Below, piece after piece: positions 33,247 through 47,371 of a DNA stretch of 64,000 bases (positions within the stretch are counted from its first letter, which is position 1; every line of letters begins with the position of its first letter). The stretch is taken from assembly GCA_945897805.1 (NCBI GenBank), contig CAMDFX010000002.1:248001-312000 (forward strand), written 5' to 3'. The DNA comes from Chryseobacterium gleum (GTDB lineage: Bacteria > Bacteroidota > Bacteroidia > Flavobacteriales_D > Crocinitomicaceae). Both the position numbers and the translations under genes were made by a program. The notes under the pieces are model-generated. The model did no database searches and had not been told where the DNA came from. It saw only the letters and a list, made by a program, of their open reading frames with translations.

Positions 33247-33337
33247 GGAGAGGTGTCCGAGTGGTTGAAGGAGCACGCCTGGAAAGTGTGTATACGCCAA
33301 AAGTGTATCGCGGGTTCGAATCCCGCCCTCTCCGCCA
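33247..33337 (+). tRNA. tRNA-Ser (anticodon GGA), CCA encoded
   Basis: The acceptor stem GGAGAGG (33247-33253) pairs with CCTCTCC (33327-33333), with discriminator G and an encoded CCA (33335-33337). The anticodon stem CACGC/GTGTG encloses CTGGAAA, giving GGA at 33281-33283. The long variable arm (TATACGCCAAAAGTGTA) is typical of class II serine tRNAs. Confidence 0.95.
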
Positions 33338-33505: not shown

Positions 33506-33955
33506 TTATTTCGCATCAATAAGAGCTTCTAAAGTAATGTTATTGTCTATAACAATCCCATATCTTACCAAACCACCATACTGTGCTGTAGCGGTTGCAC
33601 AAAACTCAGTGAATCTGCATCTTTTCAAAGCTTTTTCGTCAAAATAAAGCACGTCTTCGATATACTTTTTGTAAGCAACAACTAATCTAATAGCTTCCTC
33701 TGTTTCGTCATTTTCGGTATTTACCATTCCTCCTTTTTTAGTTCCATAGCATTCTGGATACCCGGCTTCTGCTTGACTAATAGCACTTGTTGCAAATCTA
33801 AGAGTTGTATCTAAGGTCATACCAGGAAATGTAATTTCCATTTGACTAATCAATGCTTTTTCAAATTTTTCAACATTGAACTTTTTAGTTTCTTGTGCAA
33901 AGTTTTGAGCTGCAACTCCAACAATCAATGCCACGGATAAAAATAGACTTTTCAT
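33506..33955 (-). CDS. Small secreted protein of unknown function (149 aa)
   Basis: A signal peptide (FLSVALIVGVAAQNFAQE) precedes a ~128-residue soluble domain with three cysteines (YPECYGTK, KRCRFTEFCATA). The protein is predicted mostly helical at first (VEKFEKALISQMEITF), and I recognise no family. Location is periplasmic or extracellular; no sorting domain or lipobox is present. It is the first gene downstream of tRNA-Ser and reads towards it. A 164-base gap separates it from the divergent AAA+ gene. Confidence 0.7.
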   Translation of the reverse strand: MKSLFLSVALIVGVAAQNFAQETKKFNVEKFEKALISQMEITFPGMTLDTTLRFATSAISQAEAGYPECYGTKKGGMVNTENDETEEAIRLVVAYKKYIEDVLYFDEKALKRCRFTEFCATATAQYGGLVRYGIVIDNNITLEALIDAK

Positions 33956-34119
33956 AACTTTTCTTTTTATGTTTTAATACTCGATTTTAAAGTATAATCC
34001 ACATCAAAAGAAATTGTGACAAAAAAAATGAATTTAAAATGTCACAAATAATAAGTTTCTGGATTATGCATATAAAGCTGTAGAGATTAAGCTCAAAAAA
34101 AAATCAAATTAAACAAGCC

Positions 34120-35568
34120 ATGAAAAATAAAATTGAAGACGAACCAAATAATATTTTTGTTCAGTACTTAACTGAAAAACAAAAATCAGATAATTGGGAA
34201 ATAAATTTCAGTCAACTGATCGATGAGAAATTACTGAAATTACGAGATAAAAAATCAGTCAAAGCCTTTTTTGAATTGATTCTTTCAGATCAAATTGAAC
34301 TCGCCAAAAACAAGAGATTTCCCTATGAATACACTGTCAAATTAGCAAATAACAACTTTAAAAACAAACTGACAGGTATTTTAAAATGTGTTGAGCTATA
34401 TCATCTTTACACAAAGGAAATTTCAAGTTGTATCCGTTGGAATGAGTTTGAGAAGATAACAGGAAATGTATTTTCTGACTTTGGTATTTGTAAAGAAATT
34501 AAAAAGCTGAAATTATCTCCTCCGGAAATTAAAATACTATTCAAAACTGTTAGTGGATTTTTAATGGGACAACATCCTGTTTTTTTGAACGACATGCAAT
34601 TAAACCCTGAAGAGTTGATTGATTTTAGTTTGTTGCTTTCGGATGAACAAAATGCGCTCCTAAAACAAGATTTAATTTGTTTACAAATTGACCAAGATGG
34701 TGTTTCTATTCGAACCACAATTACTAAAAAAACCTTGTCCCTAATTGGTAATTTGACTCCAAACAATAAGCTAAAAACCACTGTAGTTGCAAAAGATTCA
34801 CTTTTTGAAATTATTAAATGTGATGATTTAGAGAAAGTAAATCTTCAATATGCAACGAATATGAATACTACGTTCAATGATTTTTGTGCTTTATCACAAA
34901 AAATAACGAAAAATGAGAATCTATCTTTGCTATTACATGGTGCTCCTGGAACTGGTAAAACTGAATTCGCTAAACAATTAACCAAAAATGTCAATGGAAC
35001 TTTGTTTCAACTAAATTTCCCTCAAATTCAATCAAAATGGATTGGCGAAACGGAAAAGAACATACGTCGCGCTTTTATGGCCTATGAGGAAGCTTGGACA
35101 AAATCAAAAGAGCCAATTATTTTATTAATCAATGAGGCTGATGGTTTGATGAATAAGCGCGTGAGCGTAAATACCAGCAATGATGCATTTGCAAATCAAG
35201 CACAAACCGAATTATTAGAACAACTGGAGAAATTCAACGGAATTTTGATTGCAACAACTAACCTTTTGGGAAACATTGATTCAGCTTTTCACAGGCGATT
35301 TTTATTCAAAACAGAAATTCAAGCGCCAGATGCAACTGGCAGAACAAACTTCTTAAAACAAAGTAGTATTTATCATCTATTAAATCCAATGCAAATATCA
35401 ACACTCAATCAATCGTGCTTTACAATTGCAGAATTGAAAAATCTGGAACAAAAAATAAATTTGATTCAACGAATTAGAAATATTTCCACGCAAGATATTG
35501 ATGATTTATTTATAAATGAAACAATTACGAGAAAAAGAACCGAAGCCATTGGTTATGCTTCAAGCTGA
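34120..35568 (+). CDS. AAA+ ATPase with N-terminal unknown domain (482 aa)
   Basis: Residues 1-~230 have no recognised domain. A classic AAA module follows: Walker A GAPGTGKT at residues 274-281, Walker B IILLINEAD with Asn338 where the usual Asp stands before the catalytic Glu339, then a sensor segment ILIATTNL and the arginine finger region DSAFHRRFLFK. The pattern resembles proteasome/spastin-type AAA ATPases (QSKWIGETEKNIRRAF is the pore-loop and adjacent region). Such proteins remodel or unfold substrates. The neighbours are unknown or secreted proteins, so the substrate cannot be inferred. The NEAD form of Walker B also occurs in other bacterial AAA proteins. Confidence 0.87.
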   Translation: MKNKIEDEPNNIFVQYLTEKQKSDNWEINFSQLIDEKLLKLRDKKSVKAFFELILSDQIELAKNKRFPYEYTVKLANNNFKNKLTGILKCVELYHLYTKEISSCIRWNEFEKITGNVFSDFGICKEIKKLKLSPPEIKILFKTVSGFLMGQHPVFLNDMQLNPEELIDFSLLLSDEQNALLKQDLICLQIDQDGVSIRTTITKKTLSLIGNLTPNNKLKTTVVAKDSLFEIIKCDDLEKVNLQYATNMNTTFNDFCALSQKITKNENLSLLLHGAPGTGKTEFAKQLTKNVNGTLFQLNFPQIQSKWIGETEKNIRRAFMAYEEAWTKSKEPIILLINEADGLMNKRVSVNTSNDAFANQAQTELLEQLEKFNGILIATTNLLGNIDSAFHRRFLFKTEIQAPDATGRTNFLKQSSIYHLLNPMQISTLNQSCFTIAELKNLEQKINLIQRIRNISTQDIDDLFINETITRKRTEAIGYASS

Positions 35569-36608: not shown

Positions 36609-36815
36609 AATTCAACAATAAGAATTCGAGCCAAAAAACTAGCAGGAGCTGTAAATGGTTTTAGCAAACTTCTGCCAAGAATAAATGTCATTAAAGACAT
36701 AGTTCTAAAATCAAATTTAACCGCTAACGAACTAAAAAATTGGTTAATTAATCTTTTTTTTAAAATCGTTTTTTTTAATATAAATTATTTTTTAGTTTTA
36801 TCCCATGACAAATAA
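36609..36815 (+). pseudogene. Possible coding remnant, open frame without a start
   Basis: The frame is open for 68 codons with protein-like content (RIRAKKLAGAVNGFSKLLPR, LKSNLTANELKNWLINLFF) but has no ATG. It is in the same frame as the 78-aa gene before it, separated by TAA and TGA. It may be the decayed C-terminus of a longer gene. The 607-aa gene starts at 36805 within its last codons. Confidence 0.3.
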
Positions 36816-38628
36816 AGATTTCTCCCAAATTTTTCCTGAGATTTTAAATCCAGATGCTACTTTTTCAAATTTAAAGTCTTTGTGTCGTTCAAAAAAATAT
36901 CCTGAGGATGAGTTTGCCTCTTGTTTAAATGATTTTTCATTGGTAAGAAATAACTATCCAGGTTATATGGAGAATCCTGGAGGGTATCTTTATTCAACTA
37001 TTTTAAATAGTATCAAAAAATATTTTAGAGGAGTAAAAAATGATTTTTCAGATATTGAAAATCTATCAGATACAGTTGAAATCGATGATTTTGATAAAAA
37101 ATCAATCCAAAGAAAATTAGATGATTTTTTGAATGAGATTTATAAGTTGAGTTTACCTCCAAATCAAGTTAGACTGATTGAAGACATGAGAAAAATTTGT
37201 GAGTATGATCACGAAACATTTAGGGATTTCATGAAAGAAGTAAAGGAGACGCAAGCTAATCATGGGGTGTCTGATACAAATTTCAGAAAGCTTCTCGAGC
37301 GATTGAAAAATAATTTGAAAGGAAATGATAGGTTAAAAGATATGTTATCCTTTATTCCAGCTGACGATCAGAACATAAATGAATTAATTGAACTTTTATT
37401 ATCTTATATTCCTATGGCAACTAATAAAATTGATGCGTATCGTTTCTCAAGCGAAGAAATGAAAAAAATGCTTTGGTTAAAAGACCTTTTTGAAGACAAT
37501 GGTTATACTGTTGAGCGTTTTCCAGAGGTGTATTATGATACGTTTGAAAATTTAAAAGAGGATTTGGAATTAAAACTTGAAAAAATTGAGAATTCAAATA
37601 TTCGAGATTGGTATAAAGAAATTTCTGATGACTCAAAATGGAATAATCTTTTTGAAGGGTTTAAACACATGTATGAAAATCATCGGTTTGAACTTACCCC
37701 TAGTCAGTTAGAGGAACTTAAAAGCAAATTAACGCTTGATATGTTAGGTGTTTATACAATAAGTGAAAACACTTCAGAACCAAAATGTGATTGTGGAATA
37801 AAAATTAACGAAGGAAAAATTATTCTATTCAAAGATCGTATTGAAAAAGTCGCTGCATTTATTTCATATGCTGAAAGTCAAAATCTTAATACGATTATCG
37901 CCACTCTCCGTTTTAAAGTTTTAATGCATGAATTAGGTCATTGGTTCACACATTGGCCAAGAAGTTATGATTTTGATAAAAAATTAAATGTTAATTGGGA
38001 GTGTGGATATTATATAAATTCATTTGCTAGTAAACCCGATAAGATAACTCATGAATCACTGGCCCAATTAATATGCTTTTGGACAACAAACGATTCACAT
38101 TTGTCAAGAAAGATATTAATTGAATACTGTACTCCAAGTAATAAGGATAATGAGTATAATAAGTACCTGCCTCTTATTAACTCAAGTAAACATGAGATAT
38201 TAAAAAAGTTGAAAATTATCAGAGATTTATGCAAGTTTTCAGATGATGAAAAATATAAATTTTTGAAATCAAATTTTACTGATATTCATTCATATGTTGC
38301 AAATGAAGTTTATCTTGAAATTAAAAATAATAATAGCGATTATGGTTTAAATGTGCATTTGGATGATATTACTCGAATCTCTTCTATTTTAATAGAATTT
38401 GTTTATTCTGAATTAATTGAAGAAAAGAAAAATAGTAGCTCACCATATGATTTTCAAATAGTATATAAAAAGCTTAATAAAATAGAGAATAAGGACAGTG
38501 ACAAGGAAATATTTGAATTATGGGAAAAGAATAAAAAATTCTTTGGAAATGAGATGGAGGGTGATTTGGAAGGTATTAGAATAATGAAAAAAATGGGATT
38601 TTTTGACGATGACGATGATGATAATTAA
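36805..38628 (+). CDS. Unknown protein: sigma-like N-terminus plus HELGH zinc-peptidase motif (607 aa)
   Basis: I do not know this protein as a family. Two parts can be described. Residues about 50-175 resemble ECF sigma region 2.4 (ENPGGYLYSTILNSIKKYF) and region 4 (LPPNQVRLIEDM, then GVSDTNFRKLLERLKNNL). Residues 375-379 are HELGH within LMHELGHWFTHW, a zinc-metallopeptidase motif, with a candidate third ligand Glu417 in THESLAQLI, as in IrrE/ImmA-type or gluzincin proteases. The C-terminus is an acidic run of aspartates. No signal peptide is visible, so it is probably cytoplasmic. It recalls the HTH-plus-HExxH design of ImmA/IrrE regulators, but with a sigma-like domain. The sigma-like reading is weaker than the peptidase motif. 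Confidence 0.7.
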   Translation: MTNKDFSQIFPEILNPDATFSNLKSLCRSKKYPEDEFASCLNDFSLVRNNYPGYMENPGGYLYSTILNSIKKYFRGVKNDFSDIENLSDTVEIDDFDKKSIQRKLDDFLNEIYKLSLPPNQVRLIEDMRKICEYDHETFRDFMKEVKETQANHGVSDTNFRKLLERLKNNLKGNDRLKDMLSFIPADDQNINELIELLLSYIPMATNKIDAYRFSSEEMKKMLWLKDLFEDNGYTVERFPEVYYDTFENLKEDLELKLEKIENSNIRDWYKEISDDSKWNNLFEGFKHMYENHRFELTPSQLEELKSKLTLDMLGVYTISENTSEPKCDCGIKINEGKIILFKDRIEKVAAFISYAESQNLNTIIATLRFKVLMHELGHWFTHWPRSYDFDKKLNVNWECGYYINSFASKPDKITHESLAQLICFWTTNDSHLSRKILIEYCTPSNKDNEYNKYLPLINSSKHEILKKLKIIRDLCKFSDDEKYKFLKSNFTDIHSYVANEVYLEIKNNNSDYGLNVHLDDITRISSILIEFVYSELIEEKKNSSSPYDFQIVYKKLNKIENKDSDKEIFELWEKNKKFFGNEMEGDLEGIRIMKKMGFFDDDDDDN

Positions 38629-38671: not shown

Positions 38672-39571
38672 ATGTTAATACAAGCAAATTATAATGACCT
38701 ATGGACTATTAACTTAGGTCAACCTCTTATCGAAATCCCATGTTATTATCAATATTTAAAGCGGGAAGTCTATTTTCAAGATTACTTGGATTTGTTTTGT
38801 TGTCGAGAAAACGGAGGTCCTACCTTCGAAAGAATCGTTGTTCAAGGACATCAAACTGTTTCTATTCAAGGTTTACAAGCCGATCCAAATGGGGAATTTA
38901 CGGTAATTGATAGTAAAGGAATTGTTCGATTAATTGTAGAATATGATTTTCCGTTTAATAAAAAAGAGTTTTGTAAAGGTAGAAAAATAAAATACATATT
39001 AATTGGCGAGGCAGCCCCACCTTCAGGAGGTTACATTTACAAAGATGCCAAGGGTTCTTACATTACTGCTCCATTATATGCTGTTGGCCTTAATCCGGCA
39101 AGAATGAGTAAAACAGAGAGATTGTTAGAGTTTGCTAACAACGGTTTTTTACTATTAGATTTCTTTCCGTTTGCAATAAATTTTAAAACCACAAGAATAA
39201 TTTTGAATAATCCTATTTTAGGAGTTTTAACAAATTTATTGTCTGTTAAAATCAAAAAACTAGCTTGTTTAAATACAGAATGGGATTTTTGCTTTGTTGG
39301 TCCAAAACGAACTTCTCTTTCTATTCTAAATTACCTTGATCTATTTAATGCTTATAATTTAAACGGTAAATCAACACTTCACCCACTTGATTTAATAGGT
39401 ACGTCTGATTTTATAGATAGAGCAGGTAAAGTTCATATTGATCACACAATTAATCCAACTATTCTTGCTTGGCCAATTGGCCATTTAAGTAAACGTGCGA
39501 AATTCACTGTTTTAATTGGAGGGACAGGTCCAAATGCTCAATTAATTAGAAGGGTTTTTTATTTACCTTAA
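38672..39571 (+). CDS. Unknown protein with UDG-like GEA motif (299 aa)
   Basis: A motif YILIGEAAPPSGGYIYKD starts near residue 108, followed by ITAPLYAVGL and LLLDFFPFAINF, then FCFVGPKRTSLSIL. The order of a V/I-L-x-G-E-A-P block, a hydrophobic strand and a later G-x-K segment is reminiscent of the uracil-DNA glycosylase superfamily, which also includes proteins without glycosylase activity. No iron-sulfur cysteine pattern is evident. No signal peptide or membrane segment is seen. The gene lies 15 bases before the first NADAR gene in the same direction. The superfamily link is tentative. Confidence 0.6.
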   Translation: MLIQANYNDLWTINLGQPLIEIPCYYQYLKREVYFQDYLDLFCCRENGGPTFERIVVQGHQTVSIQGLQADPNGEFTVIDSKGIVRLIVEYDFPFNKKEFCKGRKIKYILIGEAAPPSGGYIYKDAKGSYITAPLYAVGLNPARMSKTERLLEFANNGFLLLDFFPFAINFKTTRIILNNPILGVLTNLLSVKIKKLACLNTEWDFCFVGPKRTSLSILNYLDLFNAYNLNGKSTLHPLDLIGTSDFIDRAGKVHIDHTINPTILAWPIGHLSKRAKFTVLIGGTGPNAQLIRRVFYLP

Positions 39572-39586
39572 TATCTGTTATTCAAT

Positions 39587-40063
39587 ATGTCTATATGGTT
39601 TAATATGTTTAGAGGGAATGAAAACAGTTGGATGAGAAATTTGGCACCATACCCTATTATTTATAATGGGCAAGAATGGCGAACTAGTGCAGCCTTATTT
39701 CAATCAATGCGTTATGAAGACCCGCTTATTAAAGAGATAATTCGTAATGAAAAAAGTATTTTGAGTGTAATAATAAAGCTAAAAAAATACAAGAATCAAA
39801 TGGTGGTTGTTCCAATGTCAGAATTGGATGTTGAAAATATGAGAAAATGTGTAAAAATGAAATTTGATCAGCACCCTCAATTAAAAAATACCTTGATTGA
39901 AACTGGTAAATCTCTGATTTATCAAGAAACAGGTAATAAAAATGGTAAAAGAGAGATGTTTTGGGGTGTTAAAAGGCTGATTAATAGCGAGTGGGATGGT
40001 AATAATATGATGGGTAAGATTTTGATGGATTTGAGAGATGAGTATGTGGCGGAAATAAAGTAA
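39587..40063 (+). CDS. NADAR-domain protein, copy 1 (158 aa), probably degenerate
   Basis: A single NADAR (YbiA/DUF1768) domain fills the protein: SWMRNLAPYPIIYNGQEW, ALFQSMRYEDPLIKEII, MRKCVKMKFDQHPQLKNTLI and NMMGKILMDLRDEY. NADAR enzymes cleave N-glycosidic bonds of ADP-ribose-type or riboflavin-pathway substrates, and one branch is the antitoxin of DarT1 toxins, removing ADP-ribose from guanine in DNA. Here the motif that reads TSEALFQ in the other two copies reads TSAALFQ (Ala35), and the following SPMGAKMK segment is SILSVIIK, so activity may be lost. The last two thirds are very similar to copy 3 at the DNA level. Confidence 0.88.
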   Translation: MSIWFNMFRGNENSWMRNLAPYPIIYNGQEWRTSAALFQSMRYEDPLIKEIIRNEKSILSVIIKLKKYKNQMVVVPMSELDVENMRKCVKMKFDQHPQLKNTLIETGKSLIYQETGNKNGKREMFWGVKRLINSEWDGNNMMGKILMDLRDEYVAEIK

Positions 40064-40147
40064 GTTTACTTTTGGCAAAGATAATTTGGCATTTTCTCAT
40101 TCCACATTAGATAATTGAATAAACAAAAAAACAAAATATTATAAATT

Positions 40148-40222
40148 ATGAGTCTTTGGTTTAAAGGTGTAAAAGAACCAAACAGTTGGATGAGAAATTT
40201 TGCACCATGGCACAACCTGTAA
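40148..40222 (+). pseudogene. 5' fragment of a fourth NADAR gene (24 codons)
   Basis: From the ATG at 40148 the frame reads MSLWFKGVKEPNSWMRNFAP and then WHNL before a stop at 40220-40222. The first 20 residues match the NADAR start MSIWFKGVNEPNGWMGNMAP of copy 2. After that the homology ends abruptly and the unrelated 277-aa gene begins in another frame at 40207. This is a truncated NADAR copy, joined to the next gene by recombination. Confidence 0.75.
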
Positions 40223-41040: not shown

Positions 41041-41070
41041 TATAAATTATTATAAATTATTGTAAATTAT
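41041..41070 (+). repeat. Tandem 10-bp repeat at the start of NADAR copy 2
   Basis: TATAAATTAT, TATAAATTAT and TGTAAATTAT stand in a row, the last ending in the AT of the start codon (ATG at 41069). One similar unit, TATAAATTATG, precedes the broken NADAR copy (from 40140). The repeats may affect translation or have arisen with the gene copies. Confidence 0.6.
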
Positions 41071-41584
41071 GAGTATCTGGTTTAAAGGTGTTAACGAACC
41101 TAACGGTTGGATGGGAAATATGGCTCCTTATCCTATTACCTATGGTGGTCAAGTTTGGTTAACAAGCGAAGCATTATTTCAATCAATGCGCTTTAACGAC
41201 CCCGTTATTAAAGACATCATTCGTGGTGAAAAAAGCCCGATGTCAGCTAAAATGAAAGCTAAAAGTCATCGTGCACATCATATTATTGCACCAATGTCGC
41301 CGCAAGATATTGCAAATATGGAGGCATGCGTTTTATTGAAATTCCAACAACATCCAAAAATAGCACGTTTGCTAATGGCTACGGGAAATCACCATATTTA
41401 TGAAGATGCAACAGGTCGAAACAGACCAAATGACTTATTTTGGGGAACACATCGTGATCCTAAAAACCCGACGCTGCCAATCAAAGGACAAAACATGAAA
41501 AACATGATGGGGGAAATATTAATGAAAGTTAGAGAAATTTTACTTGCTGCTGCGCCACAACCGCAACCAAAACCAATTATTTAA
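41069..41584 (+). CDS. NADAR-domain protein, copy 2 (171 aa)
   Basis: An intact-looking NADAR domain: WFKGVNEPNGWMGNMAPYPI, WLTSEALFQSMRFNDPVIK with Glu34, EKSPMSAKMKAKSHRAH, VLLKFQQHPKIARLLMATG, HIYEDATGRNRPNDLFWG and NMMGEILMKVREI. The C-terminus has a proline/glutamine tail (QPQPKPII). By family knowledge it would act on ADP-ribose-linked or related N-glycosides, possibly as a de-ADP-ribosylating enzyme. It is the most divergent of the three at the DNA level. A terminator follows at 41649-41678. Confidence 0.92.
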   Translation: MSIWFKGVNEPNGWMGNMAPYPITYGGQVWLTSEALFQSMRFNDPVIKDIIRGEKSPMSAKMKAKSHRAHHIIAPMSPQDIANMEACVLLKFQQHPKIARLLMATGNHHIYEDATGRNRPNDLFWGTHRDPKNPTLPIKGQNMKNMMGEILMKVREILLAAAPQPQPKPII

Positions 41585-41648: not shown

Positions 41649-41678
41649 AAATCCTTGAGAAATTAAGGATTTTTTTTG
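41649..41678 (+). terminator. Terminator after NADAR copy 2
   Basis: AATCCTT (41650-41656) pairs with AAGGATT (41665-41671) around an 8-base loop, followed by a T run. It separates copy 2 from copy 3, so copy 3 should have its own promoter. Confidence 0.75.
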
Positions 41679-41733
41679 TCACAAACTTTTAGGTGGTTGG
41701 CTTATACTTATATAACCCCTTAAAATTTAGAAA

Positions 41734-42210
41734 ATGAAAAGTATTTGGTTTAAAAAAGTTGCTGAAGATTATGGTTGGATGGGAAATATGGCTCCTTATC
41801 CCATAAAGTTTGATGGAAAAGTTTGGCTCACAAGTGAAGCTTTGTTTCAAAGTATGCGCTATGATATTGATAGTATTAAGGAAATTATTCGAGTTGAAAA
41901 AAGTCCTATGGGTGCAAAAATGAAGTCAAAAAAATACAAAGATCAAATGGTGGTTGTTCCAATGTCAGAGTTGGATGTTGAAAATATGAGAAAGTGTGTG
42001 AAGGTGAAATTTGATCAACACCCTCAGTTAAAAAAGGCGTTGATTCAAACTGGAATGTCTCCTATATATGAAAATATAGGTAATAGAAATGGGGAGAGAC
42101 ACAAGTTTTGGGGTGTGAAAAAATTGAGTGAGAATGAGGCTGATGGGAATAATATGATGGGTCGAATTTTGATGGATTTGAGAGATGAATATTTGAAGGA
42201 AATAAAGTAG
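41734..42210 (+). CDS. NADAR-domain protein, copy 3 (158 aa)
   Basis: An intact-looking NADAR domain: YGWMGNMAPYPIKFDGKVW, LTSEALFQSMRYD with Glu35, VEKSPMGAKMKSKKYKDQ, MRKCVKVKFDQHPQLKKALI and NMMGRILMDLRDEY. From about residue 68 onward it is close to copy 1 at DNA level (for example the 20 bases TCAAATGGTGGTTGTTCCAA are identical), whereas the N-terminal third is nearer copy 2 in motif content. That points to duplication followed by conversion between copies. The likely activity is as for the other NADAR proteins. Confidence 0.92.
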   Translation: MKSIWFKKVAEDYGWMGNMAPYPIKFDGKVWLTSEALFQSMRYDIDSIKEIIRVEKSPMGAKMKSKKYKDQMVVVPMSELDVENMRKCVKVKFDQHPQLKKALIQTGMSPIYENIGNRNGERHKFWGVKKLSENEADGNNMMGRILMDLRDEYLKEIK

Positions 42211-42286: not shown

Positions 42287-42721
42287 ATGGACAGAATAGA
42301 AAAAATGGAGCACTTACAAACCAACTTGAATAAGTGGTTTTCTGAATGGGCAAGTTATGCCAACGAAAAGGAGAGGATTGGCGCGAGAATGTTGGGGAGA
42401 AACAAAAGCTTGGAACTTTCAATTTCATTCAGGACGATAAAACCATTCATCGCAAATTTGGCTTACGATGTGTGTTTTTATACTGGTGAGCCTACTTTGA
42501 AAATTAGTTATTCAACAGCTTATAATTTCCCTCAAGAAATTAAGGATGTTTTAAAAGGAATCGATACTTCACAAGAAGATTATTACAAATTGGAAGAAAT
42601 TGCACTTATTGGAGAATCAGCGCTAGCTAAAGTTCAGATTAAAAATCTTATCGGTGAAAAAGCGATTGCCTTTTTTGTATGGAAAACAAAATTAGATAGT
42701 ACAAATTTTATAATACCTTGA
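42287..42721 (+). CDS. Unknown protein (144 aa)
   Basis: A soluble protein of unknown family. The N-terminus is helical (EKMEHLQTNLNKWFSEWASY) and the rest looks alpha/beta (LELSISFRTIKPFI, PTLKISYSTAYNF, AIAFFVWKTKLDS). It lies 76 bases after NADAR copy 3 and three bases before a 69-aa gene, in the same direction, so these small genes and the tandem-domain gene that follows may form one transcript. I see no motif that supports a function. Confidence 0.6.
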   Translation: MDRIEKMEHLQTNLNKWFSEWASYANEKERIGARMLGRNKSLELSISFRTIKPFIANLAYDVCFYTGEPTLKISYSTAYNFPQEIKDVLKGIDTSQEDYYKLEEIALIGESALAKVQIKNLIGEKAIAFFVWKTKLDSTNFIIP

Positions 42722-42724
42722 ATT

Positions 42725-42934
42725 ATGTCACACCAAATTATACAATCCATTTTTGATCAGGGAGCAAATATGATGTATATTCATATTGTAGCGCAAGTAT
42801 TATCATCCGAAGGACTACATCCAATTTATAAGGATAAATTTTTTATGGATGAACTCATTCGTTATTTTGTAGAAAAAGAAGAATATGAAAAGTGCGAACG
42901 CTTGGTCATGATTCGCGAAGCATTTAAATTTTAA
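42725..42934 (+). CDS. Small unknown protein (69 aa)
   Basis: A 69-residue soluble, mostly helical protein (QIIQSIFDQGANMMYIHIVA, DELIRYFVEKEEYEKCERLV). It starts 3 bases after the previous stop and ends 27 bases before the tandem-domain gene, so it fits a short operon. Its size and position would suit an accessory or antitoxin-like protein for the next gene, but nothing in its sequence shows that. Confidence 0.55.
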   Translation: MSHQIIQSIFDQGANMMYIHIVAQVLSSEGLHPIYKDKFFMDELIRYFVEKEEYEKCERLVMIREAFKF

Positions 42935-42961: not shown

Positions 42962-44179
42962 ATGAATTACGAGCATTTAGAAGATGTACCAGGTATTGAA
43001 AGAATTGTACCAGAAAGATACGTTTGGCACGTTTCTTCCCCTGAAAAAAGAGCATCAATACTAAAGTTTGGTTTAACGCTAGAATTTGGAGACCACAAAT
43101 GTATTTTTGCCAATAATCAATCTTTTAACGTCATATTTATGTATCCATTTTGTTTGGAAGAGGAAAATGGAAGATATAGACCAGATAATTTGATGAAATA
43201 TGATTTTTGGCGAATTGATACTGCTAGGTTCAAAGCAGATTGGTACATTGATCCCAATATGAAAGATGGTCCAATAGAATACATGGGTGATGAAAAATAT
43301 TTTGTTGCTACCGAAACTCCGATTCCATGCGAAGCTATTGAACTATTTGAAGTAGGTCAAGAATTTATCTATAAAAGGATGTATGTAATATTATCTGGTA
43401 AAAATAAAGCCTCAGGCTGGAGCGAAAATATTGCTTTAAGAGGCAAAAAGAATTTAGACATTAAGAAAGAAATATCCGAATACAGAAAGACGCATGATGC
43501 AATCAAAACAAAAGCAATGCGATCCCTTGACGTAAAGGATCATTTGTTTCCGTTAGTTATGCATAACGATCATTTGAAAGAAGTATCAGGAATTGAAAGA
43601 ATTGTGCCAGAAAGATATGTTTGGCACGTTTCTAAACCTAAGAAAAGAAAAGCTATATTAGAGTTTGGATTAAAACTAGATGTAGGTAAACACAATTGCA
43701 TTTTTGCCAACAATCAATCATTTAACGTAATATTTATGTATCCATTTTGTTTGGAAGCGGAAAATGGAAGATATAGACCAAATATTTTGCTAAAATATGA
43801 TTTTTGGCGCATTGATACCCATAGTTTTCAAGCTGAATGGTACATCGATCCTAACATGAAAGATGATTCAAAAAAATACAATAGTAATGAAAAGGAGTTT
43901 GTTTTTACCGTAACTCCAATTCCTTGTAAAGCTCTAGAATTATTTAAAGTAGGTCAAGAATTCATTGATATTAAAAAAAATGTATACATTACTTCAATTG
44001 AGAAATCAACAGGACTCGAAGGAATAACCATAATCAATAACATTGATGACAATTACATTAAAAATTACATGAAAGATATAAAATCGGACATAAGAAAAAC
44101 AGATAAAATTATAAAAATTGAAACTTCAAGGTTTTCTTGTGTCAAAGATGTTCCATTTCCTTTGGTGAAAGTTCAATAA
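42962..44179 (+). CDS. Protein of two tandem ADP-ribosyltransferase-like domains (405 aa)
   Basis: The protein is an internal duplication with a 199-residue period (units about 1-199 and 200-405), clear at protein and DNA level. Each unit reads IERIVPERYVWHVS, then a helix ending A-I/S-I-L-x-F-G-L, CIFANNQSFNVIFMYPFCLE, YDFWRIDT, WYIDPNMKD and TPIPC. This order (Y-x-W-H-V-S; helix I-L-x-x-G-L; F-A-N; W-R-I-D; E/x-T-P-I-P) resembles ADP-ribosyltransferase folds of the DarT/KptA-like type. His23 and His222 would be the first-motif residues. The Glu118 before TPIP in unit 1 is Val317 in unit 2, so unit 2 may be inactive if that Glu is catalytic. Neighbouring NADAR genes support an ADP-ribose link. 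The family is my inference. Confidence 0.65.
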   Translation: MNYEHLEDVPGIERIVPERYVWHVSSPEKRASILKFGLTLEFGDHKCIFANNQSFNVIFMYPFCLEEENGRYRPDNLMKYDFWRIDTARFKADWYIDPNMKDGPIEYMGDEKYFVATETPIPCEAIELFEVGQEFIYKRMYVILSGKNKASGWSENIALRGKKNLDIKKEISEYRKTHDAIKTKAMRSLDVKDHLFPLVMHNDHLKEVSGIERIVPERYVWHVSKPKKRKAILEFGLKLDVGKHNCIFANNQSFNVIFMYPFCLEAENGRYRPNILLKYDFWRIDTHSFQAEWYIDPNMKDDSKKYNSNEKEFVFTVTPIPCKALELFKVGQEFIDIKKNVYITSIEKSTGLEGITIINNIDDNYIKNYMKDIKSDIRKTDKIIKIETSRFSCVKDVPFPLVKVQ

Positions 44180-44556: not shown

Positions 44557-44928
44557 ATGGAAAAAAGAGAAAGTGTTAAGCCTATTAAAGGAAGTGAGAA
44601 ATTATTTAAAATTTCAAACAAACGTGTTGTAATTGGAGTTTCAAACAAAAACAAATCTGGGAAAACTTTTTCTTTGATTGAAGATTTAGTTGCCACACGA
44701 ATCACGTATCAAAATATAGTAAATTCGATTCCAGCACAGCCAGGAATTTTGATTATCACTGGTCATTATAAAAACTCTTATAAAACCATAGGAGTTTTAA
44801 AGTCTGACGAAAATATTCGCTCTGCCTTTTCAAGACCTCGAGATAACAATCGTTTTCAAACTCTTCTCAAAGAATTAAAAAATGAACTTTTTGATCACAT
44901 TGAGATTCAACTTGCGAAAGTAAGTTGA
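44557..44928 (+). CDS. Unknown protein (123 aa)
   Basis: A basic soluble protein without recognised domains. NKRVVIGVSNKNKSGKTFSL resembles a short P-loop-like segment (G-V-S-N-K-N-K-S-G-K-T), but no further nucleotide-binding motif is visible, so this may be chance. The C-terminus is helical (FQTLLKELKNELFDHIEIQL). It is followed by a small secreted protein gene 68 bases downstream. The function is unknown. Confidence 0.6.
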   Translation: MEKRESVKPIKGSEKLFKISNKRVVIGVSNKNKSGKTFSLIEDLVATRITYQNIVNSIPAQPGILIITGHYKNSYKTIGVLKSDENIRSAFSRPRDNNRFQTLLKELKNELFDHIEIQLAKVS

Positions 44929-45524: not shown

Positions 45525-45583
45525 AATGCTGGAAGTTTTTAAAATGATTTAAGGTAAAATACATTCACAAAAGTTTGATCATT

Positions 45584-47371
45584 ATGGAATATAAGCAAAT
45601 TTTTATTCAGCTCAATGAAGAGACACAGTTTAATACAGTAAAAATTACTAGACAATTAAACAATACTGAAGATAGAGTTGACAGACAAAGAAATGGACTC
45701 ATCGCTGCCATAAAAATAGACTTTGGGAAACCATCTCCTATTTTCTTAAAAGACCTCAATGATTTATATCAATCAACGGAAATTCCACTTTTAAGTAATT
45801 TGACTGTTCTTATGATTTATAAAAAATGGACAATAAATAAGTCCATTTTTGAAGTTTTAAGATTTCTTTTTAATGAAATAAATGATAGTACCCTACTAGA
45901 AAGTAAGGAGCTAACGGATAAAATCATTCATCTTATTGAATTACAATCGAATCTTAATGTCGAACATGTAAAATATAAAATTTGGCTCACCACTAAAATT
46001 ATCTTAAAAGTATACGATGATGGCAATTTTGAGAGACTCGATGACTTTATTTTCATGATCTGGAGAAATTATACTTTTATGCCTAAATTGTTTGTGCCAG
46101 ATGTTTTCAAGCCGCAAATAGTTGATGCTTATTTTAAACCAATTTGGTTTGCTTTTTCCATCTTTAAAAAACAAAAGGCAAAACGCGAAATTTATTATTC
46201 ATTTTGCAATGACTTCTTGGCAAAACTTTTAGAGCCTGAATTAGCAGAGAATGATTTTTTGAATTTCCTGCAGATCATATTTAAAAAAAATAAAATTGAA
46301 GTTGTTAAAAGTTTCACATTTAAAGATTACATGCGATTATATGAAATTAAAAAGTTAAATAATCAACTTTTTAATCGATTACCTGATTTGTCAAAAACAG
46401 CAATTGAACACGGCTATAGAGATCGGGCTAACGAGGAGAACCATTGTTTTAAGCTGGTTTATAATTTGTTTGCTGACTTTGGTATTTCTTATTTTTTCAT
46501 TTTTCATTTTATGAATGGATATTTAAATACCCAAGAAAAAGAATGGTTACATGATATGCTGCAAGGAAGAAATTTAGTGTATTCTAAAAACCTGCCTTGT
46601 ACCTTAACTAAAAAAACAACACATTTTTTCAATACCATTCCTCAAGAATGGAAAAACGATGCTAATGAACTGAATTTTAAATCTCCAAAGGGTCTTTACG
46701 GAATCACGAAGGAAAATTACTCCTTGACACAAAGTTTAATTTATTGTACCATATATTTTGAAGTAAGAAATGAAATTTATACCAAGGAAGTTTTACGAAA
46801 TCTGAGAGGAGCTGATAATATTGATTTCTGGATTAGTACTTTATGTAAACTTTATCATAAAGGACTTAGAGTAGAGGACATGAATCAAATTATTGATTAT
46901 ATAGATGATCAGGTAATTAGAAATGGCAGGAAAATTGACTTTAATACAAAAAAAGTATCCAACCTTTGGGCAGAAGCATTAATCTGGCACCGAGAATTGA
47001 GATTAATGCGAGTAGGAAATTATAGTAGAACATTTAACTTGCCTAAATCGGAGATCAATACTTATAAAACCAAATTTCAAGATAAAAAATATAAGATAGT
47101 GCAGTTACTCACAAATAAAGATTTAATAGAAGAAGGACGTACTTTATCACATTGCGTTGGAACATATACAAATAACTGCATTGATAGAGGTTCATATATT
47201 TTTTCTTTGTGTTTGGAGCAAGAAAATGAAAAGAATACACCATTAATCACCATTGAGGTAAATGCGAATACCATACGCCAAAAAAAGGGTAAAAGGAACC
47301 GCACTTGTTCAAAAGAAGAGGATTACATTATCCGAAAATGGGCCAAAGAAAACAAATTAAAATTTCTTTAA
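45584..47371 (+). CDS. PcfJ-like protein (595 aa)
   Basis: The N-terminal ~480 residues have no recognised domain and are rich in lysine and aromatic residues. The C-terminal ~90 residues match the PcfJ-like domain: LLTNKDLIEEGRTLSHCVGT, YIFSLCLEQE, TIEVNANTIRQKKGKRNRTC and a final helix with IIRKWAKENK. The H-C-V-G-T/S-Y and G-K-x-N-R signatures are characteristic. PcfJ is named after a gene of the enterococcal plasmid pCF10, but its biochemical role is unknown, and PcfJ-like proteins occur on mobile elements and in accessory regions. The start is the ATG at 45584; a TTG three codons earlier is also in frame. No PcfK-like or conjugation gene is nearby. Confidence 0.82.
   Translation: MEYKQIFIQLNEETQFNTVKITRQLNNTEDRVDRQRNGLIAAIKIDFGKPSPIFLKDLNDLYQSTEIPLLSNLTVLMIYKKWTINKSIFEVLRFLFNEINDSTLLESKELTDKIIHLIELQSNLNVEHVKYKIWLTTKIILKVYDDGNFERLDDFIFMIWRNYTFMPKLFVPDVFKPQIVDAYFKPIWFAFSIFKKQKAKREIYYSFCNDFLAKLLEPELAENDFLNFLQIIFKKNKIEVVKSFTFKDYMRLYEIKKLNNQLFNRLPDLSKTAIEHGYRDRANEENHCFKLVYNLFADFGISYFFIFHFMNGYLNTQEKEWLHDMLQGRNLVYSKNLPCTLTKKTTHFFNTIPQEWKNDANELNFKSPKGLYGITKENYSLTQSLIYCTIYFEVRNEIYTKEVLRNLRGADNIDFWISTLCKLYHKGLRVEDMNQIIDYIDDQVIRNGRKIDFNTKKVSNLWAEALIWHRELRLMRVGNYSRTFNLPKSEINTYKTKFQDKKYKIVQLLTNKDLIEEGRTLSHCVGTYTNNCIDRGSYIFSLCLEQENEKNTPLITIEVNANTIRQKKGKRNRTCSKEEDYIIRKWAKENKLKFL

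Follow-up and report, generated by a model that had tools for sequence, protein, structure and literature searches.

The gene at 36805-38628 of a 64,000-nucleotide stretch of contig CAMDFX010000002.1, the whole of which is called the window here, raises the question of whether promoter recognition and protein cutting can be combined in a single bacterial polypeptide. An initial annotation had described the product as a possible fusion of a sigma-like region and an HELGH metallopeptidase, able to couple the sensing of stress or infection to promoter choice. The reading preferred here, to which a probability of about one half is assigned, is that a promoter-recognition module resembling regions 2.4 to 4 of sigma70 and extracytoplasmic function (ECF) sigma factors is joined in cis to a gluzincin-type peptidase, and that together they regulate a mobile cassette via the element TGTCACA-N16/17-NTTAT through proteolysis gated by an AAA ATPase. 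In a gene cluster for defence or DNA repair, such a fusion may couple proteolysis to the control of transcription.

The open reading frame (ORF) lies on the forward strand and encodes 607 amino acids, with HELGH at residues 375-379 and the proposed downstream glutamate at E417, all as first annotated; no ORF of at least 80 amino acids is listed on the opposite strand over the same interval. The whole protein has no significant match in Pfam, NCBIfam, PADLOC or PHROGs, and the sole match of a PDB sequence search, Diaphanous (E 0.025), was dismissed as chance. The two parts also occur separately among its relatives. In genome G107 a 202-amino-acid protein corresponds to the N module alone, matching residues 1-200 with a clean end and the next cassette gene 25 nt on, while the peptidase part stands alone at 17 loci (192 to 345 amino acids, the shortest ending at a contig end); the module boundaries are therefore taken to be real. 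Both modules are found in the window, in the g2 genomes and in G483, and also in G162 if two contig-end pieces belong to one gene; in G801 the gene is interrupted by a contig end inside the peptidase part. The fusion of the two modules in one gene is real, and their assignment to a sigma-like and a gluzincin-type peptidase module is regarded as highly probable. Ratios of non-synonymous to synonymous substitution (dN/dS) of 0.25-0.58 for five pairs of N modules, and of 0.18 and 0.23 for two pairs of peptidase modules, indicate that the ORF is under purifying selection. A protein search of genome contigs, which returns close relatives only, gave four loci, all in metagenome-assembled genomes of Bacteroidota. 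A search with profile A1 of 240 genomes from the same family gave matches at E ≤ 0.001 in 20 of them, the genome itself included and the weakest matches being distant peptidases. No relative of the protein was found in phage records, plasmid records or viral contigs, and no member of the fusion family in four congeners.

The N module was compared by hhalign, as a family profile, with a profile of 14 ECF-type paralogues from its own genome (16 sigma factors were found, of which the two of sigma70 type were excluded). The match is colinear and covers residues 57-173, with region 2.4 at one end and the close of region 4 at the other (score 42.2, E 4.3e-6, probability 86.7%), where the sigma-like stretches had been placed. 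The highest score among 200 column-shuffled profiles is 20.5, and the reversed profile scores 13.9. Clustering of 430 ORFs gave 29 natural family profiles, two of them representing the family itself; of the others the ECF profile matches best (38.8 over 114 columns; the next scores 27.0 over 30 columns), and three AraC-type loci and one TetR-type locus of the same genome score 9.8-16.6. Taken alone, residues 57-83, which resemble region 2.4, the helix that reads the -10 element in sigma factors, give a local profile alignment with E 8.5e-4; residues 115-173 are colinear with region 4 and weak on their own (E 0.0034). N68 and R75 are kept in four of the five rows of alignment A2, those covering both sites, and lie seven apart as in the aligned ECF sequences. 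When the ECF profile is run against 386 ORFs, the stand-alone relative in G107 (37.8) outranks one of the two sigma70-type paralogues (35.2). A hidden Markov model (HMM) of the N module, applied to sets of 299 and 395 partly overlapping genomes, matched three proteins outside the family, of which two are ECF factors above the Pfam cut-offs. An ECF profile enlarged with two sigma factors from the N-module search scores 52.3; being circular, this value was not used.

The peptidase module was examined in alignment A3, which holds the window protein and 10 relatives from residue 207 onwards. H375, E376, G378, H379, W380, H383, E417, A420 and W426 are identical in all 11 rows, so the HELGH motif is conserved rather than fortuitous and the site appears, as annotated, to be of zinc-peptidase type. 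Eight more distant relatives retain HExxH and a downstream glutamate by eye, one of them (L088) with aspartate in place of H383. Structure comparison by VIA of model residues 212-489 matched ACE2 (9krb_B; Z 7.0, 153 residues, root-mean-square deviation 4.1), a trypanosomal metallocarboxypeptidase (3dwc, 6.6), the YbeY-like AQ_1354 (1oz9, 6.2), dipeptidyl peptidase (DPP) III (5na8, 5.8) and a Zincin_1-like protein (3e11, 4.1), all of these Z values lying below the tool's own level for safe matches. The model is confident at residues 341-380 (predicted local distance difference test, pLDDT, 75-84) and 421-470, with values of 28-53 at 381-420, where E417 lies. Five of the 11 A3 rows match Zincin_1 (PF06262) at E ≤ 1, the best at 5.6e-4 and 20.3 bits, below the cut-off of 22.4; none matches the peptidase M78 profile at that threshold, and the protein matches no serine protease family. 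The HExxH...E pattern and the weak fold matches fit a gluzincin and make less likely a buried helix that binds no metal, one of the outcomes by which the initial annotation was to have been refuted.

A candidate site of action for the sigma-like module is provided by two blocks, TGTCACA and GGATTAT, common to the regions upstream of the AAA gene in four genomes. The element was first read from these four aligned regions, in which divergent copies are also visible, and the genome pattern was widened to GGMTTAT after the copy before a NADAR gene of the window had been seen; the cleaner tests are hence a matrix built from the AAA upstreams only and counts that omit the AAA sites. With this matrix, five of 35 other cassette ORFs (27.4, 23.3, 17.8, 17.1 and 14.4) exceed the best of 365 controls (14.2, at the peptidase-only locus L026); loci of G483 and g2 were part of this control set, whose ten highest scores include three near-identical upstream regions of g2. 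The pattern TGTCACAN{13,16}GGMTTAT, searched in 40 genomes, occurs seven times in the four genomes with the module subtype of the window, always in the cassette, and five times among the remaining 36; reversed, it has three occurrences across all 40. All three exact matches in the genome itself lie within the cassette.

In cassettes that carry a sigma-like module, 16 of 57 ORFs have TGTCACA, counted by itself, no more than 120 nt upstream (11/39 in the window subtype, 4/14 in g2 and 1/4 in G483), and none of 262 control ORFs does; the best of 629 other permutations of the 7-mer reaches three cassette ORFs. For this count g2 had one representative, drawn from two loci (L033 and part of L032), with the near-identical L034 and L035 excluded; L053, L054, L055 and L094 were outside the controls, and at L053 a single TGTCACA stands about 35-40 nt before a SLOG gene and lacks TTAT. 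TTAT follows 17 or 18 nt after TGTCACA at 12 of the 16 cassette sites, at 8 of 12 once the AAA sites are set aside, and at none of 23 other TGTCACA sites, five of which are inside cassettes. The cassettes are related to one another, and the element sites are thus not independent events. Start codons lie 50-82 nt after the first block, and a separation of 16-17 nt is that of the -35 and -10 boxes recognised by the sigma70 family. Consensus sigma70 promoters are not enriched over shuffled sequence (68 against 58.9, standard deviation 8.1). TGTCACA also stands just after the stop codon of the gene of the 42287 type, without a second block, in two genomes (window 42726-42732; L025 14596).

G107, which has no peptidase, carries the element, and so, at one site, does G483, which has no adjacent AAA gene; at the 13 peptidase-only loci that formed part of the controls, no ORF was found to have it upstream. 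The association of the element is with the sigma-like module, not with the peptidase. Among the other cassette genes scanned, no match to a transcription-factor family rose above cut-off. On these two grounds the sigma-like module is the simplest reader of the element, by association rather than proof, and that it acts there is considered somewhat better than an even chance. The suggested link to promoter choice is thereby made plausible, in the form of a cassette-specific element.

The partner of the fusion gene is a gene for an IetA-like AAA ATPase, found on the same strand at most 1.3 kb upstream in seven of nine genomes with the sigma-like module. It is the adjacent upstream gene in G107, G162 and G801; it is separated from the fusion gene by an opposite-strand CAP gene in the window and by two small genes in three g2 genomes. 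In G054 a contig edge hides the place where an AAA gene would lie, and G483 has a weaker AAA match only, about 8 kb away. Among the 17 peptidase-only loci an AAA gene occurs at one (L054), with no AAA match in the stretches examined at the other 16. At L054 (1764-4705), in a genome from another family of the class (G584), the ATPase gene lies upstream of a peptidase relative lacking the sigma-like module, constituting a second AAA-peptidase pairing. In the window genome all three NADAR genes lie 1-3.6 kb downstream of the fusion gene, and NADAR genes are present at six of the 17 peptidase-only loci. The features of the locus are collected in the table below.

Table. Modules of the fusion protein, element copies and cassette genes, with window coordinates
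Feature	Coordinates	Strand	Basis or remark
N module, sigma-like, residues 1-207	36805..37425	+	family alignment A2; ECF profile match 57-173; stand-alone 202-aa protein in G107
Region 2.4-like helix, residues 57-83	36973..37053	+	hhalign; N68 and R75 with the seven-residue spacing of ECF factors
Region 4-like helix-turn-helix (HTH), residues 115-173; some 10 additional residues precede the HTH	37147..37323	+	hhalign; weak VIA alignment
Gluzincin-type metallopeptidase domain (predicted), about residues 208-500	37426..38304	+	A3 invariant columns; VIA matches to HExxH enzymes, Z 4.1-7.0
HELGH 375-379 to H383	37927..37953	+	H375, E376, G378, H379, W380, H383 identical in 11/11 rows
E417, expected third metal ligand	38053..38055	+	identical in 11/11 rows
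C-terminal tail, residues 501-607, poorly conserved	38305..38628	+	alignment A1
TGTCACA-N16-ATTAT upstream of AAA gene	34040..34067	+	shared AAA upstream blocks; pattern and matrix searches
Divergent copy facing gene 33506-33955	33994..34021	-	pattern and matrix searches
TGTCACA-N17-CTTAT upstream of NADAR gene 41734	41677..41705	+	pattern and matrix searches
IetA-like AAA ATPase, partner gene	34120..35568	+	PADLOC IetA 1.1e-20; NCBIfam IteA 1.5e-19, 70.4 bits against cut-off 510
Divergent small gene, function unassigned	33506..33955	-	under divergent element; no Pfam match
Gene with LIGEA.PP motif, next to sigma-like gene in several cassettes	38672..39571	+	no Pfam match
NADAR-domain gene	39587..40063	+	PF08719 1.6e-13
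NADAR-domain gene	41069..41584	+	PF08719 7.6e-18
NADAR-domain gene, element upstream	41734..42210	+	PF08719 1.1e-15
Cassette gene, function unassigned	42287..42721	+	relatives in G107, G162, g2 and G483 cassettes
Two-repeat cassette gene, function unassigned	42962..44179	+	Imm-NTF2 5.4e-4, below cut-off
Cassette gene, function unassigned	44557..44928	+	TGTCACA precedes its relatives in G107, G162 and g2

From this arrangement we infer binding of the element and of RNA polymerase by the fusion protein, peptidase activity, a trigger and an order of events. The fusion protein would be cytosolic and would regulate a mobile cassette of the IetA-like ATPase, NADAR and other nucleic-acid-related genes; its sigma-like module would recognise the elements before the AAA gene, the divergent gene, a NADAR gene and other cassette genes, and drive their expression. 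Upon infection or nucleic-acid damage the ATPase might alter the state of the fusion protein, whose attached peptidase could then cut either the fusion itself or a bound inhibitor, freeing or ending promoter activity. Phage infection is one possible trigger, and nucleic acid that is damaged or ADP-ribosylated another, a proposal made because of the biochemistry of NADAR enzymes. Between the AAA gene and the start of the gene with the sigma-like module there are 61-70 nt in G107, G162 and G801, and there the two could be transcribed from one promoter, which would give feedback. The ATPase probably gates a sigma-like promoter selector that would serve a conflict cassette of NADAR type and carries a cis peptidase. 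That the peptidase controls the sigma-like module in cis is put forward tentatively, and the fullest version, a self-contained promoter switch in which a sigma factor and its own peptidase in one chain, gated by the ATPase, drive a regulon of NADAR, repair and conflict genes via TGTCACA-N16/17-NTTAT, is a shade more doubtful still.

A number of results weigh against this interpretation. Regions 2.1-2.2, which make the contacts to the core enzyme in real sigma factors, fall outside the local ECF alignment and are spanned only by a forced global one. The window protein alone matches the ECF profile at E 0.03, among chance matches; when the N-module profile is used for the scan, the first sigma factor (E 0.012) ranks below several unrelated ORFs, the best of them at E 2.6e-4; and, compared singly with the ECF profile, the g2 and G483 N modules fail to match (0.1 and 0.8% probability). 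The Pfam Sigma70_r2 and Sigma70_r4 cut-offs are not reached by the N module; one of five rows matches Sigma70_r4 (E 0.0086), short of the cut-off and not superior to the matches of unrelated families. The strongest outside match of the HMM search is a class I tRNA synthetase by Pfam (E 5.8e-5), taken as false, so E-values near 1e-4 are not decisive. Structural comparison did not set the N module apart: in its AlphaFold model (pLDDT 46, low) sigma chains reach Z of about 4, among unrelated helical bundles with Z of up to 6.7. In the low-confidence full-length model (mean pLDDT 50) residues 91-183 align weakly with region 4 of SigA and sigma70 by VIA (Z 4.5-5.1), and Foldseek gave no match at E < 1 with either model. 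At the level of the locus, no element lies directly upstream of the fusion gene in the window, where the opposite-strand CAP gene intervenes; the stretches examined of g2 and G483 showed no NADAR; and another DNA-binding protein could read the element. In view of the weak single-sequence signal, the undetected regions 2.1-2.2, the Pfam results below cut-off and the three outside matches, one of them a tRNA synthetase, the module is called sigma-like and not an ECF factor. Regions 2.4 and 4, proposed in the initial annotation, are recovered by profile comparison; a complete sigma factor is not.

Could the likeness instead be convergent, produced by the short helices of an AT-rich protein, with a metallopeptidase that has an unrelated helical N domain and a host sigma factor that reads the element? 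The scores below Pfam cut-off, the weak comparisons of single sequences, the low-confidence model and the unrelated protein at the head of the outside matches would all be consistent with this. Such convergence is opposed by a colinear match over 98-114 columns that stands above shuffled, reversed and natural controls, by two ECF factors among three outside matches and by an element that tracks the N module, and it is judged improbable, the most so of the three alternatives weighed here. Less remote, yet still unlikely, is a degenerate sigma-derived adaptor that binds DNA without binding RNA polymerase and brings the peptidase to the cassette promoters to cleave a repressor, the element then comprising an operator and an ordinary promoter. 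The loss of detectable regions 2.1-2.2 with retention of region 2.4 and the HTH would suit an adaptor, and the cleavage of DdrO by IrrE, in the accounts available, offers a precedent. Against it stand the fixed orientation of the element blocks, their 16-17 nt spacing as in promoters of the sigma70 family and the start codons 50-82 nt on; furthermore, the cassette genes scanned include none recognisable as coding for a repressor.

The ATPase raises a further alternative, namely a defence pair of the IetAS type in which the peptidase is a toxic or clearing effector, the AAA protein the sensor and the sigma-like module a docking domain only. The matches of the ATPase to IetA profiles point this way, as does the AAA gene of G584 beside a peptidase without the sigma-like module. 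Conversely, the AAA gene of G107 is paired with the sigma-like module and no peptidase, the other 16 of the 17 peptidase-only loci lack an AAA match in the stretches examined, and the partner is not a serine protease; this pairing is accordingly thought rather improbable, falling between the other two. IetS is a subtilisin-like serine protease. An ATPase resembling IetA beside a gene for a known or predicted protease is common to the window and IetAS; the partner in the window is a metallopeptidase fused to a sigma-like module, and the AAA score is far below the NCBIfam cut-off.

The promoter-switch reading is best compared with ECF factors that have a C-terminal extension or are under proteolytic control (ECF41, ECF42, ECF243 IutY and ECF54). 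Region 2.4 to 4 order and spacing are the same, as is a candidate promoter pair with a 16-17 nt spacer in the regulator's own cassette; the fusion differs in lacking detectable regions 2.1-2.2 and in having a metallopeptidase as its extension. In the available parts of two surveys, the extensions described are SnoaL-like, TPR, metal-sensing and anti-sigma domains, proteases act in trans, and no peptidase fused in cis to an ECF factor is described (PMC8999054, PMC8103513). A protease and an ECF sigma factor are combined in one antiviral circuit in the CalpL/CalpT/CalpS system of type III CRISPR, where, as far as the excerpts of that work extend, the parts are separate proteins, a Lon protease with a SAVED sensor, an anti-sigma factor and a sigma factor (PMC11417357), in contrast to the one-chain fusion of the window. 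Neither SAVED nor Lon was matched among the cassette genes scanned, an unrecognised anti-sigma factor being still conceivable. ECF-like HTH domains are fused in TRADD-N conflict proteins, which share with the fusion the use of a sigma-like HTH as a conflict-protein domain and differ in the partner domains; in the portion of that paper available, zincin-like domains are given for a different system and NADAR does not appear (PMC8195603). Both ECF-like HTH domains in conflict proteins and protease-released ECF factors are thus already known from these sources, as far as they were accessible.

ImmA/IrrE (peptidase M78), cited in the initial annotation, ties an HExxH peptidase to transcription control together with DdrO or ImmR, in the accounts available. 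The comparison serves as an analogy, since the fusion has a sigma-like module rather than an Xre-type HTH and no M78 match. With Zincin_1, ACE2, the trypanosomal carboxypeptidase and DPP III the fusion shares the HExxH helix, the downstream glutamate and weak profile or fold similarity; it differs from Zincin_1 and the larger HExxH enzymes in falling below the Pfam cut-off and in its additional conserved W380 and H383. In the literature searched, which included few subscription journals and in the broader searches consisted of titles and the beginnings of abstracts, no sigma factor fused to a metallopeptidase or other peptidase was found. Protease-controlled sigma factors, in the passages available, are acted on in trans; a peptidase in cis to a sigma-like module would provide a link from proteolysis to promoter choice within one protein, with a candidate regulon open to testing at base resolution, and would point to a way of turning on a NADAR cassette. 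Guanosine ADP-ribosylation of DNA and RNA is undone by NADAR enzymes, according to the sections available of PMC11833690 and PMC11125620.

Several features of the other cassette genes can be added. The gene at 42962-44179 contains an internal duplication (82% over 300 nt), its relatives in g2 having one repeat only; by motif likeness it is a possible ADP-ribosyltransferase, and it could be a partner of NADAR. The gene at 38672-39571 may resemble uracil-DNA glycosylases (UDG) and has no Pfam match. The g2 cassettes also hold a cpYpsA SLOG gene (PF12694, 2.1e-39) and a UDG-superfamily gene (PF03167, 5.8e-7). A fragment at 40133-40206, before the ORF at 40186, resembles the start of a NADAR gene (84% to 41054-41127) and looks like a duplication relic. 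Proteins of 740-850 amino acids without a significant Pfam match lie beside NADAR genes at L025 (10924-13476), L038 (2873-5428) and L052 (7882-10110), and were not found in the window cassette. At L090, L091 and L031 distant HExxH relatives stand, by eye, beside genes like those of type I restriction subunits.

The cassette stretch has a GC content of 28-33%, against 34-40% around it, and adjoins a tRNA-Ser gene (33247-33337). In the congener G015 the tRNA flank and sequence matching the window from 57443 onwards adjoin within approximately 170 nt, such that about 24 kb (window 33484-57442) is absent; the other three congeners match the left flank only, in the stretches read. No direct repeats marking the ends of an integration were recognised among 20 repeat families. 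The PcfJ family is linked with conjugative elements, and a PcfJ-like protein (PF14284, 3.1e-15) is encoded at 45575-47371. Beyond it, at 47.9-57.4 kb, are genes for large proteins that by eye look secreted, possibly representing a second insertion.

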